Shown: one piece after another, positions 19,204-27,110 of the stretch
Position numbering within the stretch: position 1 is the stretch's first letter
Layout: each line of letters opens with the position of its first letter
Origin: Nitrospirota bacterium
GTDB lineage: Bacteria; NPL-UPA2; JAADIA01
Length of the DNA: 33,380 nt
Reading direction: 5' to 3'
NCBI GenBank assembly: GCA_013151555.1
Contig: JAADIA010000096.1
Location: forward strand, 3,857 to 37,236
Notes under the pieces: model-generated
Database searches by the model: none
Told to the model about the DNA's origin: nothing
Seen by the model: only the letters and a program-made list of their open reading frames with translations
Translations under genes and position numbers: made by a program

Positions 19204-19872
19204 CTAATGCATATCTGCTACATGATGCTTTATTGTCTTGCCTTTCACAAAGTAGATAACATTCTCAGCAACATTAGTAGCATGATCGGCAATCCGCTCG
19301 AGATGCCGGCCAATAAGCATAAGATGAACGGCTCTGCTTATAGTGGAGGTATCTTGTATCATATAAGTGAGCAACTCCCGGAATATCTGCTCGTTGAGAT
19401 TATCCACTTCGTCATCGCTTTCACACACGGACCTGGCAAGGGCGGCATCTTTATTAACAAAAGCATCCAGACTATCCTTAACCATTCCCTGGGATAAAGT
19501 AGCCATGCGGGGGATATCGATAAGGGGTTTAAGGCGGGGTTCTTTGACCAATTCCAGAGATCTCTCCGCGATGTTTACCGCCTGGTCTCCTATGCGTTCC
19601 AGCTCGCTGTTGATTTTCATGGCTGAGGTGATAAATCTCAAATCGATGGCAATAGGTTGCCGGAGAGCAAGGAGTTTCAGACATTGTTCATCCACCTCTA
19701 TTTCCAGAGCATCTATAAGGGGATCCAGCTTAATGACTTGCTCTGCCAGAGGAGAATCCCTATTCACCAAAGATTTAACAGAGCGGGCAATAGCCTCCTC
19801 TGCCCGGGAAGCCATCTGAAGAAGCCTTTCCTTCAACAGTTTCAGTTCTTCATCAAAATGTCTTTCTGCCAT
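19204..19872 (-). CDS. phoU: Phosphate signalling regulator PhoU
   Basis: A 222-residue all-helical protein with the two PhoU repeats: the first contains DEELKLLKERLLQMASRAEEAI and ERIGDQAVNIAE, the second FVNKDAALARSVCESDDEVD and ERIADHATNVAENV. The E/DxxxD-type metal clusters (ERIGDQAVN, ERIADHATN) are both present. PhoU connects PstSCAB to the PhoR kinase and represses the Pho regulon when phosphate is plentiful. ATG at 19872 has GGAGGT 9 bases upstream; the open frame extends further but without a good start. It is the last gene of pstSCAB-phoU. Confidence 0.96.
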   Translation of the reverse strand: MAERHFDEELKLLKERLLQMASRAEEAIARSVKSLVNRDSPLAEQVIKLDPLIDALEIEVDEQCLKLLALRQPIAIDLRFITSAMKINSELERIGDQAVNIAERSLELVKEPRLKPLIDIPRMATLSQGMVKDSLDAFVNKDAALARSVCESDDEVDNLNEQIFRELLTYMIQDTSTISRAVHLMLIGRHLERIADHATNVAENVIYFVKGKTIKHHVADMH

Positions 19873-19945
19873 TTTTTGTTTACCTCCATATCCTGAGTTT
19901 GTCAAATTTCCATGTTTCGACCGGGTTATTCACGTGCCGTGTCCG

Positions 19946-20710
19946 TCAGCCAAACCTTCCCGTAATATAGTCCTCAGTTATCTTCTTCTCCGGATTTGTA
20001 AATATCTTATCAGTTTTATCGAATTCTATCAACTCTCCCATCATCAAAAAGGCTGCTTTATCCGAGACTCTGGCTGCCTGTTGCATATTATGGGTCACGA
20101 TAACAATAGTATAATCTTTTTTCAGTTCCTGGATCAATTCCTCGATTTTTGCCGTGGCTATAGGGTCAAGAGCGGAACAAGGTTCATCAAAGAGAAGCAC
20201 TTCAGGCTTTACAGCAAGTGCCCTTGCAATAACAAGTCTTTGCTGCTGGCCGCCGGAAAGGGCATAAGCACTTGAATGAAGTTTATCCTTAACCTCATCC
20301 CAGAGAGCTGCGTGTTTGAGTGCCTTTTCAACGTGTCCGGAGAGCTCTGCTTTTTTTCGGGTTCCCCGGAGTTTCAGGCCATAGGCTATATTGTCAAATA
20401 TACTCATGGGAAAAGGGGTGGGTTTCTGGAAGACCATACCAATATGGCTCCTGAGATCGATGAGGTCAATCTCCTTTGAGAGAATATCCTTACCCTTGAA
20501 GGTGATCTCTCCTTCATATCTATTGCCAGGATAAAGGTCATGCATACGGTTAAAACATCTTAGTAACGTGGTCTTCCCGCAACCGGAGGGACCGATAATA
20601 GCCGTAACGCTATTTCTGTATACCGGCAGAGAAATATTTTTCAAAGTTGCTATGCCACCTGAATAGAAAAAATTCAGCTTTTTGATTTCAAGCTCAACTA
20701 TGTCGCTCAT
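19946..20710 (-). CDS. pstB: Phosphate ABC transporter ATPase PstB
   Basis: A 254-residue ABC ATPase. GPSGCGKTT is the Walker [10 protein letters not shown] the ABC signature, [13 protein letters not shown] the Walker B and [12 protein letters not shown] the switch His. [38 protein letters not shown] and the C-terminal EDYITGRFG are specific to PstB. It powers high-affinity phosphate import. ATG at 20710 overlaps the pstA stop as ATGA and has GGAGG 10 bases upstream; a start six codons earlier is less likely. phoU follows after 73 bases. Confidence 0.97.
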
Positions 20711-21552
20711 CTTTTCCCATACCTCCATCTGATTGCCAGTCTACCAAGAATCGTCAGCATCAGGATAAATATTGTTATCATGAGAGATGCTGCCCATGCC
20801 TGTTTATGCCAGTCATCATAGGGACCCATTGCATACTGGAATATAGTTACGGTAAGTGAAGCTATCGGCTCGTTCATGTTGGTGGAGAAATAGGAGTTGT
20901 TAAAGGATGTGAAGAGCAGGGGCGCTGTCTCACCGGCAACTCTGGCTATCGAGAGCAATATGCCGGTGAGGATTCCTGCCGCTGCTCCTCTATATACCAC
21001 CTGAATAATCACTTTATAGTAGGGCGCCCCGAGGGCAAAAGCAGCTTCCCTGAGTGTCCAGGGCACCAGGGAGAGCATATTTTCTGTGGTCCTCAGGACA
21101 ACAGGAATCATTATTATAGCCAGGGCCATTGCTCCGGCCCAGCCGCTGAAATGGCCGGCAGGCTTTACGATTATGGCATATATAAATGTTCCGATTACAA
21201 TAGAGGGGATACTGACCATTATATCGGAAAAGATGCTTATAATCTTCGAAATCTTCCTCCCCCGGGCATATTCAGCCAAAAATGTTCCGCCCAGAATACC
21301 TACAGGTACCCCGATAAGGGTTGCAAAGAAGGTAATCATTAACTGTCCCACAAAGGCATTTTTTAAACCGCCGCCTTCCATACCCGGAGGAACAGGGTCA
21401 TTAGTAAACAGAGCCGGACCAAGTGCACTTATCCCTTTTACCAGTACATCCCCAAGGATAAAGATAAGCCAGAAGAGACCGGAAAGAGCCGCGATGGTAC
21501 TCAAGCTAAGAGCGATACGACTATTGAGTTTTCTTACATTTTCTCTGTTCAC
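20707..21552 (-). CDS. pstA: Phosphate ABC transporter permease PstA
   Basis: A 281-residue inner-membrane permease with six helices. Specific signs are [41 protein letters not shown] and the cytoplasmic coupling motif [24 protein letters not shown] (EAA loop), followed by [23 protein letters not shown]. It pairs with PstC to form the membrane channel of the phosphate importer. GTG at 21552 overlaps the pstC stop as GTGA, and its own stop overlaps pstB as ATGA, so translation of all three is coupled. Confidence 0.96.
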
Positions 21553-22490
21553 CGGGAATACCTTCTTTCCGCTTTAAGGAGGAAAAGTTTCGCAATTGCC
21601 AGGGTTATAAAACTTAGGACGAAAAGTATCAGGGCCAGATAAAAGAGAGATGAGAGGTATATATCCGTATCTGCCTCTGTGAATTCATTAGCAAGAGTTA
21701 CCGTGATTGTTGCCGCAGCATCAAGGAGTGACGAGGTTATCCGGTGATTATTACCGAGGACAAAGGCAATGGCCATAGTCTCTCCCAACGCTCTCCCAAG
21801 GGAGAGCACTATGCCGCCAAAAACGCCCAATTTTGAATAGGAGAAAACTATGTTTTTTATTGCCTCCCATTTGGTTGCTCCCAGGGCATAGGCAGACTCT
21901 TTCATAACCGCGGGAGTAAGATTAAAAGCATCTCTCGCGATGCTTGCCGTAAAGGGAATAATCATAATACTCAAGATAACACTTGCCGTCAGGAGATCAA
22001 TGCCCATCGGCGTGCCTTTAAAAAGTATTCCGATAAACGGGAGTTTACCAATAGTATTCTGAAGAGCCGGCTCTACATAGTGAGACATTATCGGAACAAG
22101 GGTAAAAAGTCCCCACATACCGTAGATAATGCTGGGTATGGCGGCCAGGAGTTCTATAGCCACACCTATCGGTCCTTTGAGGTAGTGGGGAGCTACTTCC
22201 GTGATAAAAATTGCTATTCCTATGGCAACAGGCACAGCTATCAGGAGAGACAGAACCGTAGTTACCGCAGTGCCGAATAGATTTGTGGCGGCTCCAAAGG
22301 ACTCGGTTACCGGATTCCAGTCCGTTGAGGTAATGAAGCGGAAGAAACCGAACTTTTCTATTGCCGGGGAAGACTCCGCGAGTAATACCCAGAGGATGCC
22401 GGCTATTAAGGCGAGAACGGATAAAGAGGAAACGGCCGTAACAAGGGAGAAGATTCTGTCACCCGCATTTTTCTTAAAAAGTACCGGCAA
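21549..22490 (-). CDS. pstC: Phosphate ABC transporter permease PstC
   Basis: A 313-residue permease with six helices. Features are FITSTDWNPVTESFGA, LAAIPSIIYGMWGLF, the EAA loop around PAVMKESAYALGATKWEAIKNI, and GIVLSLGRALGETMAIAFVLGN. Start is TTG at 22490: an in-frame TAA precedes it directly, and AGGAG lies 8 bases upstream, which leaves no better choice. Using a weak TTG may set PstC below PstS in amount. The 138-base gap to pstS holds a long imperfect hairpin. Confidence 0.94.
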   Translation of the reverse strand: MPVLFKKNAGDRIFSLVTAVSSLSVLALIAGILWVLLAESSPAIEKFGFFRFITSTDWNPVTESFGAATNLFGTAVTTVLSLLIAVPVAIGIAIFITEVAPHYLKGPIGVAIELLAAIPSIIYGMWGLFTLVPIMSHYVEPALQNTIGKLPFIGILFKGTPMGIDLLTASVILSIMIIPFTASIARDAFNLTPAVMKESAYALGATKWEAIKNIVFSYSKLGVFGGIVLSLGRALGETMAIAFVLGNNHRITSSLLDAAATITVTLANEFTEADTDIYLSSLFYLALILFVLSFITLAIAKLFLLKAERRYSR

Positions 22491-22628: not shown

Positions 22629-23645
22629 TTAATAAATTCCTTGAGCCTTCCAATAGTTCCTGATACTGTCTTTCAAGGAATCGGGAAGGGGAACATAAGT
22701 GAGCTTCCGGGCTATCTCGTTGCCGTTATTGAAAGCCCAGTCAAAGAATTTAACAACCTTGACATTAGAAGCGTTTTTTTCCTTGGCCAGAAGTATAAAT
22801 GTTGCCCCCGATATAGGCCAGGAATTTTTTCCGGGAGAGTTAACGAGCCAAAGATAAAAATCTTTCTCAGGATCGAAATTTCCGGAAGCGGCCGCATCCT
22901 GAAAACTTTCAAAACTCGGCTTAACAAAATTCCAGGCCGCATTTTTCAGGAGCGTGTAAGTAAGCTTATTCTGTTTCGCATAGGCAAACTCAACATAACC
23001 GATGGAGTATCTAACCCTTTTCACATAGTTTGCTACTCCTTCGTTGCCTTTTCCTCCTATACCTACAGGCCATCTCACTGCTTTTCCGGCGCCAACTTTC
23101 TCTTTCCATTCAATACTTACCTGGCTGAGATAGGTGGTGAATATCGCGGTCGTGCCTGAGCCGTCAGACCGATGGACGACAGTAATCTTCTTGCTGGGAA
23201 GCCTTAAAGTTGGATTCAAAGCCTTTACCTTTTCATCATCCCAGGATATTATCTCGCCCAGGAATATCCGGGTTAAGGTTTCAGGATCAAGTTTGAGCTC
23301 GCCAGCCTTTATTCCCGGGATGTTGACTACCGGAACAACTCCTCCAATAACTGCAGGGAACTGGAGCAGGTTCTCCTTTTCAAGTTTGTCCGGATTCAGG
23401 GGAGCATCCGAGGCCCCGAAATCCACAGTCCGGTTCATAATCTGTCTTTGTCCACCTCCTGAACCTATGGACTGGTAATTAAGCTTAAGGCCGGTAGCTT
23501 TGTTATAGGTATATCCCCAGGCAGAATAAACAGGGTAGGGGAAAGAGGCCCCGGCCCCGTTAAGCATCGTGCCTGCAAAAGCCGTCAGGCTAAAAGTTAG
23601 AACGGCTGCAAAACTTAAGGCAGCAAAAAAACTCTTTTTTTTCAT
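22629..23645 (-). CDS. pstS: Phosphate-binding periplasmic protein PstS
   Basis: A 338-residue secreted binding protein with a classical signal peptide (MKKKSFFAALSFAAVLTFSL followed by TAFA). The mature part has GAGASFPYPVYSAWG, YQSIGSGGGQRQIMNRTVDFGASDAPL and HRSDGSGTTAIFTTYL, the loops that coordinate phosphate in PstS. It delivers phosphate to PstCAB. ATG has GAGGAGG 6 bases upstream. The promoter contains four phased Pho half-sites. The stop lies just before the GGCAC hairpin. Confidence 0.96.
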   Translation of the reverse strand: MKKKSFFAALSFAAVLTFSLTAFAGTMLNGAGASFPYPVYSAWGYTYNKATGLKLNYQSIGSGGGQRQIMNRTVDFGASDAPLNPDKLEKENLLQFPAVIGGVVPVVNIPGIKAGELKLDPETLTRIFLGEIISWDDEKVKALNPTLRLPSKKITVVHRSDGSGTTAIFTTYLSQVSIEWKEKVGAGKAVRWPVGIGGKGNEGVANYVKRVRYSIGYVEFAYAKQNKLTYTLLKNAAWNFVKPSFESFQDAAASGNFDPEKDFYLWLVNSPGKNSWPISGATFILLAKEKNASNVKVVKFFDWAFNNGNEIARKLTYVPLPDSLKDSIRNYWKAQGIY

Positions 23646-23668: not shown

Positions 23669-23722
23669 ATTATAACCGGTTAATGTTACAATTGTGTTAC
23701 AATCCTGTTAAGATTTGGTTAA
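23669..23722 (-). promoter_or_regulatory. Pho box and promoter of pstS
   Basis: On the minus strand four half-sites lie exactly 11 bases apart: TTAACC (23717-23722), TTAACA (23706-23711), GTAACA (23695-23700) and GTAACA (23684-23689). Nine bases later comes a perfect -10, TATAAT (23669-23674). The half-sites occupy the -35 region, as in PhoB-activated class II promoters. The site overlaps the stop of the upstream porin gene. Confidence 0.88.
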
Positions 23723-24969
23723 AACTTAATTGCTACATCAACCTGAAGAACCTGCTGGTCATTTCCCGATATGTGTCCGGCACTGGTATCTATCGGTTCC
23801 ATGTAATAATAATCGAGCCCTAAGATAATGTTCTTGGCCAAGCCATATTTCAGGGCTACCTCATGACCTTTTACATGGGTATCGCCATCATAAGCATCAG
23901 AATCAGGAAAGGCATCAAGCCAGGCATCCTGTTCAAGACGCCGGTAGAGATATTTAAACTGCCACTGGCCGGCCTTCTTCACCTTCTTCTCCCCGAACTT
24001 AAAGCCAACCACCCATCCCTCATTATTTTTACTAGGGTCGGAAGCCTTCACATATTCACCAAAAAAGGCACCGTAGGACACCCAACCGCCCAAAGGTTCC
24101 TTAATGGTTAACTCGAAGGCCGGGCTTATAGAATTGTAATCATACTTGTGATTTGCTCCGCTCTTGGTGTTGGTATCTGCAGACCCGTTTATATCATAAC
24201 CTTTGGAATTAATCAAGTAGCCGGTAAGGGCAAGCTTTAAACTTTTTTGCTCGCTAAGTTTCCACTTAATCCCCGGCTGAAGATAAGCCATCCAGGGTTC
24301 ATCGGCATTGCTGCTTGACTCATCAAGGACAAAGAAACCCGAGTTCACAAAAAGCTCTGTGCTATAGGTCTCACCGGAAAACACCAGAGCTGCACCTTCA
24401 GGGTTGATATCGCCGTCCCAGAGAAGGTCGGTAGGCTCCCAGAGGATAGGCTTCCTTTTCATCTTACCGCCAAAGAGGGTTATCGATGGGGTTGGAGCGA
24501 ATTCCGCATAAGCATAATCCAACCAGAGGTTTTTGGAAGAAAATGTATCCTGGAATGTCTGGTTGGTTGAGCGGGCATCGTTACTGCTTCCCGAAGCAAA
24601 GCCGGCCGCGATCTTTACTTGATCGGTAACCTTCGCTTCCGTACCCAGCCTGAACCTAACTCTTCCTCTAGCGCGCGCAGCTCTATTATCTTTATCCTTG
24701 TCATCGGCCTGATAACGCAATCTGAGGTCACCCTTCAGTTTCATGGTCCGGATCCATTTAGGCACGCCCTCTTGTTCTTCTTTAGCCTGGTCTTTTTTTA
24801 TTTCCTCTTTTGTTTCTACCAGAACGGCTTTTGCTTCTTTCCGGCTGAGGATTCCTTTCTCTACCAGTTTTGATACCAACACATCGATTTCACTGGCATA
24901 AAGGTTTGTCCCCGGAAGAAGCAAAATCCCCGCGAAAACCAACAAGACCACCTCTTTTACTCGCTTCAT
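23719..24969 (-). CDS. Outer-membrane porin, putatively phosphate-starvation induced
   Basis: A 416-residue protein with a signal peptide ending near TNLYA (residue 25), a short helical N-terminal segment (residues ~26-65, VLVSKLVEKGILSRKEAKAV) and then many alternating beta-strands such as LKGDLRLRYQA and RGRVRFRLGTEAKV. It ends in VDVAIKF, with the C-terminal Phe that the BAM machinery recognises. It fits the family of putative porins (Porin_5-like) with a 16- to 18-strand barrel. Lying between two Pho promoters, in the same direction as the upstream Pho-controlled gene, it may be the phosphate channel across the outer membrane, like OprP in function though not recognisably in sequence. ATG has AAGGAG upstream. 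Confidence 0.82.
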   Translation of the reverse strand: MKRVKEVVLLVFAGILLLPGTNLYASEIDVLVSKLVEKGILSRKEAKAVLVETKEEIKKDQAKEEQEGVPKWIRTMKLKGDLRLRYQADDKDKDNRAARARGRVRFRLGTEAKVTDQVKIAAGFASGSSNDARSTNQTFQDTFSSKNLWLDYAYAEFAPTPSITLFGGKMKRKPILWEPTDLLWDGDINPEGAALVFSGETYSTELFVNSGFFVLDESSSNADEPWMAYLQPGIKWKLSEQKSLKLALTGYLINSKGYDINGSADTNTKSGANHKYDYNSISPAFELTIKEPLGGWVSYGAFFGEYVKASDPSKNNEGWVVGFKFGEKKVKKAGQWQFKYLYRRLEQDAWLDAFPDSDAYDGDTHVKGHEVALKYGLAKNIILGLDYYYMEPIDTSAGHISGNDQQVLQVDVAIKF

Positions 24970-25050
24970 ATATTCTTCTCCTTCCTTTTACTTCGTTAAC
25001 ATTACCCTCAAAACTCTTATACCGACTGCCTCAGTTCAGTACCTCCTTTC

Positions 25051-25359
25051 TCAGTCTGTTTCGTCTTCTATTCCGGTTTCCATGCTATCGTCCAGCACCA
25101 ATTTACCTTCTTCATTGAGCTTGAAATCTACTTTTTCCCATTGGACATCCTGGGGCAGCTCGGTTATTACCGCTATCTTTTCCCAGGGGAAACAACGTAC
25201 TTGAATTCCTCCTGTCTTGACATCTTTTCTGAAATGGTAAGTCTGGCAACGCATACGTAAATATTGAGCATGCTCTTCCAGGACTTCTCCTACTGCCACA
25301 TGATTCTTGGCCTCAGGATAATCTTTTCCCATCCTTACCTTGACAATTTTATTCATCAT
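25051..25359 (-). CDS. Unknown small protein, first gene behind a Pho box
   Basis: I do not recognise this 102-residue protein. It has no signal peptide and no membrane helix. The N-terminal part is basic (IVKVRMGKDYPEAKNH), the middle has two cysteines (RMRCQTYHFRK and IQVRCFPWEKIAVI), and the C-terminal quarter is very acidic, ending DDSMETGIEDETD. The strand-rich pattern could be a small beta fold. ATG at 25359 (or the next codon) has AGGAGGT 7 bases upstream. A Pho box with a -10 lies 24 bases upstream, and the porin follows after 81 bases, so it should be made during phosphate starvation along with the porin. Confidence 0.75.
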   Translation of the reverse strand: MMNKIVKVRMGKDYPEAKNHVAVGEVLEEHAQYLRMRCQTYHFRKDVKTGGIQVRCFPWEKIAVITELPQDVQWEKVDFKLNEEGKLVLDDSMETGIEDETD

Positions 25360-25382
25360 CTGTTTCACCTCCTTTCTTTTTT

Positions 25383-25607: not shown

Positions 25608-27041
25608 TTAGGTGGAGAGATGCTGGGTGATAGGAAGAGTGAAAAAGAACTTTGAACCTTTCCCGGGTTCGCTTTCCACCCCTACGGTTCCGCCGTGAGC
25701 GCGGACGATATGCTTAACTATAGCCAAACCTAAACCTGTTCCTCCCAGTTCCCGGGAGCGGGCTTTGTCCACACGGTAGAATCGTTCAAAGAGCCGGGAT
25801 AGATGTTCCCGGGGAATACCAATGCCGGTATCGGACACCTCAATCCTTATATTGCCGTTGTTATTAAGAGCGGTAAAGCATATCTTCCCTCCCTCAGGAG
25901 TAAACTTGATAGCGTTATCCAGAAGATTTCCCAGAACCCGTTCTATCCTTTCGCTATCTGCTGTTAGGTGAGGAAAATTCGGAGGAATATTCACTTCAAT
26001 CGTAAGTGCCTTTCGCTCTATCTTCTTCCGGAAATTAGAGACTACCTCGTCTATCAGTTCTTTAAAATTTATAGACTGGAATTCCATTTTAATCTCTTGA
26101 GACTCTATCCGGGAAAGGTGAAGAAGGTCATTAATAAGACTATTCAGTCTATCAGCATGTTTTTCAATGATCTTTAGAAAACGAACTTTAGCTTCCGGGT
26201 CATCAATAGCTCCTTCTTTGAGAGTTTCGACGAATCCTCTAATAGAGGTAAGAGGAGTTCGCAGTTCATGGGAAACATTGGCGACGAACTCGACTCGCAT
26301 CTTTTCTAACTTTTTAATTCCCGTAATATCATGCAATACAGCTACTGCCCCCCAGACTTTTTCTTTATCTCCCAGCGGAACAGCGTGAACTTCGAAGATC
26401 CTCTCTTGAGGGAAGAGCAGAGTTAAATCTCTTGAAAACAGTTCTCCTTTGCTTAAGGCCTCTTTCAGAAGACTATTCAGTTCGTTATTTCTGAGTATTT
26501 CCCAGCAGAATTCTCCGATTACTTTATCTTGGGAGAGAGAAAATATATTTTCGGAAGCGGAATTGAAAAGGATGACCCTTTCTTCTTTATCAACAGCGAC
26601 TACTCCCTCAACGATACTGGAAAGTATGGCCAATATCTCGTCTCTGTCCTTGGTGATAGTCCGTATCCTGTTTTTAAGTTCTTTTGACATTCGGTTAAGA
26701 GCATCCGCCAGTTGACCTATCTCATCCTTAGAATCGACCCTTAGCTTTCTGGTGAAATTGCCCCTTGCCATATCTAAAGAAATCTTAGTCATTTCTCTAA
26801 GAGGTTTAGTAACCGTGCGGGCAACCAGGAACCCTATCCCCAGGGCAAGGAGAGAACCCAATACCGCTCCCAGGAACATCATGTTCCGGATAATAGCCTC
26901 GGATTTTAAACTTGCGGCAATCCTTTCAACATAATAATTCTCAAAGTAAATACTTACAAAAAATCCAAATGCCACCATACAGATAATTGCTAAACCGGCA
27001 TAGGTTAAAAATAATTTCCAGAAGATTTTTCCTCGAAGCAT
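25608..27041 (-). CDS. phoR: PhoR-like sensor histidine kinase
   Basis: A 477-residue kinase: two membrane helices (residues ~8-30 and ~50-70), a HAMP domain (ARTVTKPLREMTKISLDMAR to LADALNRMSKEL), a PAS domain (ILAILSSIVEGVVAVDKEER...), the HisKA His in NVSHELRTPLTSIRGF near residue 258, then ATPase boxes (NLLDNAIKFTP, VSDTGIGIPRE, ELGGTGLGLAIVKHIV). It matches PhoR, which phosphorylates PhoB. Only about 20 residues lie between the two helices, so there is no extracytoplasmic sensing domain; signal input would have to come through PstSCAB-PhoU. No response regulator gene is adjacent. ATG at 27041 is preferred; a TTG at 27056 is possible. Confidence 0.85.
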   Translation of the reverse strand: MLRGKIFWKLFLTYAGLAIICMVAFGFFVSIYFENYYVERIAASLKSEAIIRNMMFLGAVLGSLLALGIGFLVARTVTKPLREMTKISLDMARGNFTRKLRVDSKDEIGQLADALNRMSKELKNRIRTITKDRDEILAILSSIVEGVVAVDKEERVILFNSASENIFSLSQDKVIGEFCWEILRNNELNSLLKEALSKGELFSRDLTLLFPQERIFEVHAVPLGDKEKVWGAVAVLHDITGIKKLEKMRVEFVANVSHELRTPLTSIRGFVETLKEGAIDDPEAKVRFLKIIEKHADRLNSLINDLLHLSRIESQEIKMEFQSINFKELIDEVVSNFRKKIERKALTIEVNIPPNFPHLTADSERIERVLGNLLDNAIKFTPEGGKICFTALNNNGNIRIEVSDTGIGIPREHLSRLFERFYRVDKARSRELGGTGLGLAIVKHIVRAHGGTVGVESEPGKGSKFFFTLPITQHLST

Positions 27042-27110
27042 ATTACTATTCCCCAATGTCCTTTTCCTAATCTTTCTTTCCTTAATATATTAACAAGAAA
27101 GTCGGAGATA

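Follow-up and report, generated by a model that had tools for sequence, protein, structure and literature searches.

A phosphate-linked bacterial protein family with a predicted Sm-like fold

Three pairs of accessory regulator and phosphate importer have been described: PhoU with Pst, DUF47 (PitR) with Pit, and PhoU with the Na/Pi cotransporter (PMC13170248). Small proteins of the DUF1127 family also regulate phosphate uptake, by binding PhoR (PMC12501420). The gene considered here was found in a stretch of 33,380 nucleotides (the window). Like the genes for PhoU, PitR and the PhoU-domain regulators of the NptA system, it adjoins the importers and the two-component system, and its product is likewise presumed to be a cytoplasmic regulator (PMC13170248). 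It differs from them in that the product is all-beta in the AF2 model and has no match to PF01895 or PF01865, and in that the gene occurs in addition to PhoU or DUF47 genes, not instead of them. With DUF1127 it shares the character of a small cytoplasmic protein tuning the phosphate response, a role that is established for DUF1127 and only proposed for the present family (PMC12501420); DUF1127 proteins, however, are often under 50 aa and form another family, of which the window protein shows no match. The protein is placed here in a new family with a predicted Sm-like fold, within a known kind of system.

The gene is a 102-aa ORF on the minus strand, running from an ATG at 25359 to a stop ending at 25051; the plus strand of this interval is interrupted by a stop. 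Judged from its sequence relatives, the ORF is a real gene and not a chance frame, because its invariant residues are retained in relatives of about 30-55% identity. The preliminary description of the protein proved accurate: no export signal is present, the N-terminus having no hydrophobic stretch; of its two cysteines, C38 and C56, only the first is conserved; the last 34 residues form a very acidic tail (Table 1); and no family can be named, the protein having no match in Pfam, NCBIfam or PDB sequences. Single-sequence searches of these three and of plasmids, 60 relatives and genome contigs returned nothing, searches of the open-access literature found no description of such a family, and no clear match to a known family unrelated to phosphate, the outcome named in advance as contrary to a phosphate role, was found. 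The gene had also been placed ahead of a porin, and a Porin_5 porin does follow directly downstream, succeeded by pstS-pstC-pstA-pstB-phoU, with phoR upstream and an arsenate-reductase-like gene beyond phoR on the same side. The pstC, pstA, pstB and phoU genes of the window served as blastp references for scoring the neighborhoods of homologues.

Table 1. Coordinates of the gene, its upstream elements and its neighbors in the window
Feature	Position	Strand	Evidence
Gene for 102-aa protein, Pho-linked Sm-like family, subfamily B	25051..25359	-	ORF, relatives, invariant residues, context
Predicted five-strand Sm/LSm barrel, residues 1-72, basic	25144..25359	-	AF2, Foldseek, VIA-align, charge
C-terminal tail, residues 69-102, net charge -9, model confidence low at end	25054..25155	-	AF2, charge
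Extended ribosome-binding site AGAAAGGAGGTGAAA, immediately 5' of ATG	25363..25377	-	Sequence
Pho-box-like array CTTAATCaaatCTTAACAttgtTGTCATAatgcGGTAATA, four 7-bp units at 11-bp spacing	25437-25398	-	Unit matrix; similar arrays before homologues
Second Pho-box-like array, 5' of pstS	23684..23723	-	Unit matrix
Porin_5 porin, next gene downstream	23719..24969	-	Pfam E 7e-48
pstS	22629..23645	-	NCBIfam above cut-off
pstC	21549..22490	-	ORF; sequence reading and place between pstS and pstA
pstA	20707..21552	-	ORF; sequence reading and gene order
pstB	19946..20728	-	ORF; sequence reading and gene order
phoU	19204..19905	-	ORF; sequence reading and gene order
PhoR-type sensor kinase, upstream of gene	25608..27056	-	NCBIfam PnpS and phoR models above cut-off

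The family was reached through a weak paralog in the same genome (E 0.002), which lies beside gyrA and an archease-like gene and was used as a bridge, with a relative at 44% identity in genome G132. In the G132 phylum, a four-sequence profile matched 26 of 35 genomes, with E-values down to 1e-47, and among these matches closer relatives of the window protein turned up. A profile of the closer relatives led to further genomes through profile searches of genome contigs and whole genomes. The gene-bearing MAGs are labelled Omnitrophota, WOR-3, Caldisericota and Planctomycetes (including Sedimentisphaerales); these names are those on the records, where MAG labels may be wrong, and some groups are thinly sampled.

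The window protein belongs to a subfamily, B, with the signature NH...G...C..xHF...R..PW. Residues Y14, H20, G24, H42, R55, P58 and W59 are invariant in its 28 sequences, while K7, R9, K12 and C38 are each present in 27, the exception at C38 being a Gly. Subfamily A is marked by PRENIAHIRILPDDFD and usually present in single copy in the G132 phylum; its aligned members have none of H20, H42 and C38. It is an undescribed family of about 105 aa, found in most genomes of that phylum (L009-L030) and in the window's own genome (L003; G000:C42:6840-7154), and in one group of it the flanking genes are AEC-permease-like on one side and RNase-H-like on the other. The distant subfamily D (KPYPSARNHVYTGKLIGYDGHF...LHFG), from other Planctomycetota (L116 7080-7430, L117 7634-8092, L118 7078-7527), has neither C38 nor PW. 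Kinship of A and B is indicated by the alignment of the B profile with one A member (hhalign probability 97.4%, E 1e-11); in a tree rooted on A, B stays together and the window protein is the first branch inside it. One candidate member, L006, was discarded as matching by chance within a longer, unrelated frame that encodes a histidine-kinase-like fragment, and the match at L008 falls within a 427-aa frame.

The link to phosphate starvation drawn in the preliminary description withstood a check of the homologues: genes for phosphate transport or regulation adjoin 29 of the 30 intact subfamily B loci, 26 of the 30 lying in a Pst or PhoR-porin locus. Gene order varies among them. The window has PhoR-gene-porin-PstSCAB-PhoU; L045 and L099 have gene-porin-PstSCAB-PhoU-PhoB-PhoR; L050, L088 and other Planctomycetes have PhoR-porin-PstSCAB-gene-PhoU, the gene lying between pstB and phoU in many Planctomycetes; L091, L093, L095 and L098 have PstB-PhoU-porin-gene; and L114 has PhoB-PhoR-gene-porin-PstS. 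The contig of L044 stops within the porin. Two further loci are beside a Na/Pi cotransporter (L092, where Na_Pi_cotrans carries a PhoU domain, and L086, with PhoB, PhoR, gene, cotransporter and PhoU), and at one, L096, the gene is upstream of DUF47 (PitR) and a PHO4/Pit transporter. At the remaining locus, L094, no phosphate gene was found nearby. L113 and L114 are out-of-sample cases, found after the profile was fixed. Subfamily A provides an internal control: its neighbors are varied, and PstB- and PhoU-like genes lie within 1.5 kb in 1 of 25 loci (L012); in the genome of L015, PhoU is about 2 kb away. Blastp detected no phosphate genes at the three subfamily D loci. Subfamily B can therefore be regarded, with near certainty, as an undescribed phosphate-linked protein family.

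The pairing with a porin fared less uniformly. Blastp recognised no porin beside the gene at L086, L092 and L096, and an obligatory porin partner was rejected. What the family tracks is the unit of PhoU-type regulator and importer, not the porin itself, as its occurrence beside Na/Pi and Pit transporters indicates. Broken or interrupted copies were also seen. A TGA-broken copy lies beside a second pst operon at L100 4940-5092 (G424, WOR-3) and another, without phosphate context, at L115 5851-6147; G717 and G729 hold two more partial or interrupted matches; and the copy at L039 9988-10060 (G217) is apparently frameshifted in an A-run near the N-terminus, through assembly error or decay.

Upstream of the gene, the preliminary description had seen the strongest ribosome site of the area and a Pho box. 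The ribosome site is exceptional, the 1.8 Mb genome holding two exact copies of AGAAAGGAGGTGAAA and one with a single mismatch, although a reversed-pattern control also gave two. Elsewhere in the window the extended sequence AGAAAGGAGG recurs once, at 25042-25051 (-), starting from the last base of the gene's own stop codon, with no ORF directly behind it; at the G217 locus, AGAAAGGAGGTG is likewise found just 3' of the gene. The Pho-box-like array ends 38 bases from the ATG and shares the 12-mer CAAATCTTAACA with the array before pstS. By a repeat-unit matrix trained on the loci of other genomes, the window being excluded, it is the best minus-strand match in the window, but its score, 10.1, is not above the mean maximum of whole-window shuffles, 11.0. 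Since the score alone does not beat the shuffles, the case for a Pho box rests on location and recurrence: comparable arrays precede the gene in WOR-3 and Caldisericota-labelled loci. In WOR-3 (L045, L046, L048 and L099), near-identical arrays (GTTAACCgaaaCCTGACAatcgGCTTATAcgcgCTTAGTC) precede both the gene and the porin, and constitute a well-marked Pho-box candidate for that group.

A search of structure databases went beyond what had been seen from the sequence and pointed to an Sm/LSm fold. Two AF2 models were made from the same nine sequences, with either the window protein or the Planctomycete protein L050 placed first. The former has a pLDDT of 77 and strands at residues 5-10, 19-29, 33-43, 47-58 and 62-68; the latter, with a pLDDT of 85, has the same core and a C-terminal extension of three strands. 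In Foldseek searches of the PDB, the window model retrieved Sm, LSm and U7 snRNP chains first (probability near 1.00, E from 0.03); most top rows for the L050 model were Sm, LSm and Hfq chains, with a few unrelated rows of low probability. VIA-align gave Z scores of 8-9 for the window model and 6.7-7.6 for the L050 model, and the latter is the weaker support because a Z under 8 may reflect merely a common arrangement. Within the window protein, the alignments span residues 1-72 and barely cover the tail. A search of PDB sequences with the family profile found no Sm protein and a match to L15e only, which was judged meaningless. Given that Foldseek E-values were modest (0.03-0.1) and that both models share one sequence set, the fold is graded as likely rather than proven, with good confidence in the prediction.

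The best structural matches are the Sm/LSm proteins of eukaryotes and archaea (PF01423), which share its five-strand barrel and align with the window model over 61-67 residues at an rmsd of about 2-2.5 and an identity of 6-18%. No sequence match to any LSM model was obtained, even at E 10. The likeness to Sm proteins is one of predicted shape only, and ring assembly and RNA binding are putative. With Hfq (PF17209) the window protein has in common the predicted Sm-type barrel, a basic core, a Gly in the second strand, a similar size and an acidic tail, and Hfq chains are among its fold matches. It differs in that neither the window protein nor the other eight members scanned match the PF17209 profile, and it does not align with the Hfq of its own genome (hhalign probability 0.4%). 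Ahead of its last strand Hfq carries the Sm2 motif YKH(A); at this position the family has an invariant PW (28 sequences), and its gene lies in phosphate loci, not beside miaA or hflX. By these sequence comparisons the window protein is not a member of Hfq or of a catalogued LSM family. The window's own genome carries a normal hfq between miaA and hflX (G000:C32:3417-3602), and a simple replacement of Hfq was for this reason rejected. No Hfq match was obtained in 20 other genomes (19 carriers of the Pho-linked gene and G132), mostly MAGs and in part incomplete; these would leave room for another Sm-type factor.

All 28 subfamily B proteins have a basic core (pI 8.6-10.4). Their tails differ in charge, being acidic for the window protein and for those labelled WOR-3, Omnitrophota and Caldisericota but near neutral for many Planctomycetes. 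An inducible RNA-binding regulator of the phosphate regulon is suggested by three features together: the Sm-like core with its basic charge, the Pho-type control, and the basic and aromatic residues that are conserved in strand 1 and at the turn from strand 4 to strand 5. Among the roles proposed at the outset (a regulator, polyphosphate or metal handling, a partner in the envelope), a regulator appears to fit best. In low phosphate, PhoR/PhoB would activate the gene through the upstream repeats; the basic barrels would assemble into a ring and bind RNA through K7, R9, K12, R55, P58 and W59. The ring might then adjust the translation or stability of phosphate-regulon mRNAs (porin, pst, phoU) or, alternatively, bring small RNAs together with them, a function that Hfq performs for many regulons. 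In proteins that have one, the acidic tail may limit RNA binding, by analogy with the acidic tip of Hfq, which does so. Counted in favor of a Pho-induced, Sm-like, putatively RNA-binding post-transcriptional regulator of phosphate import are the family and its linkage, the fold, the basic core, the repeat arrays, the conservation and the lack of an Hfq match in the 20 other genomes. Against it, the canonical Sm RNA-contact motifs are not kept, PW replacing YKH and the strand 2-3 loop not being conserved; the genome of the window has a normal Hfq; and genes beside phoU can equally act on proteins. Taken as a whole, the statement is held with somewhat less than even confidence.

The last of these points leads to the closest competing explanation, in which RNA plays no part and the small barrel, by docking on a PhoU-type regulator, on PhoR or on the transporter, modulates what the importer signals to the kinase. 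The occurrence of the gene with all three known regulator/importer pairs (PMC13170248), its position between pstB and phoU in many Planctomycetes and the DUF1127 precedent of small proteins acting on PhoR (PMC12501420) all fit such an adaptor; against it, a strongly basic core, as seen in every member, is more typical of nucleic-acid binding. The adaptor is a doubtful but serious contender, over which the RNA-binding regulator is favored. A sensor, in which H20, H42 and C38, with K12 and Y14 nearby, would detect a bound ligand (a metal, phosphate or a small phosphorylated molecule), is rather unlikely. The two histidines are invariant in B and C38 nearly so, aligned A members have none of the three, and the strand register deduced from the AF2 model places H20 opposite H42 as likely cross-strand neighbors; however, one member dispenses with the cysteine, and the three residues could instead have a role in packing or in contacting RNA. 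That this is an Sm-like protein of general housekeeping, in pst operons by accident and with no role specific to phosphate, is very improbable: subfamilies A and D are mostly not phosphate-linked and L094 is not, but in B the linkage survives across distant groups, rearranged gene orders and importers of three types, and roughly 1% of genes would fall that close by chance, by our estimate from locus and genome sizes.

To return to the RNA-binding regulator, its broadest form can be offered only tentatively: a factor dedicated to phosphate import, Sm-like and probably RNA-binding, that would work side by side with the PhoU-type regulators of the Pst, Pit and Npt systems and, in Planctomycetes, WOR-3, Omnitrophota and relatives, give Pho control a further, post-transcriptional level. 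Pho is among the best-studied bacterial regulons, yet this gene, which distantly related groups retain in the core locus of that regulon, is unannotated in the libraries searched. Should RNA binding hold true, a single nutrient regulon would have an Sm protein of its own, and many of the bacteria concerned apparently have no Hfq; should the protein bind PhoU-type proteins instead, the family would bear on the route by which importers inform PhoR.

For the stretch between gene and porin, the window gave no support for conserved RNA structure (z -0.4). In L043 and L044, both from Caldisericota-type genomes, an RNA hairpin of 12-13 bp lies between the two genes, and a T-G to T-A change in it keeps the pairing.
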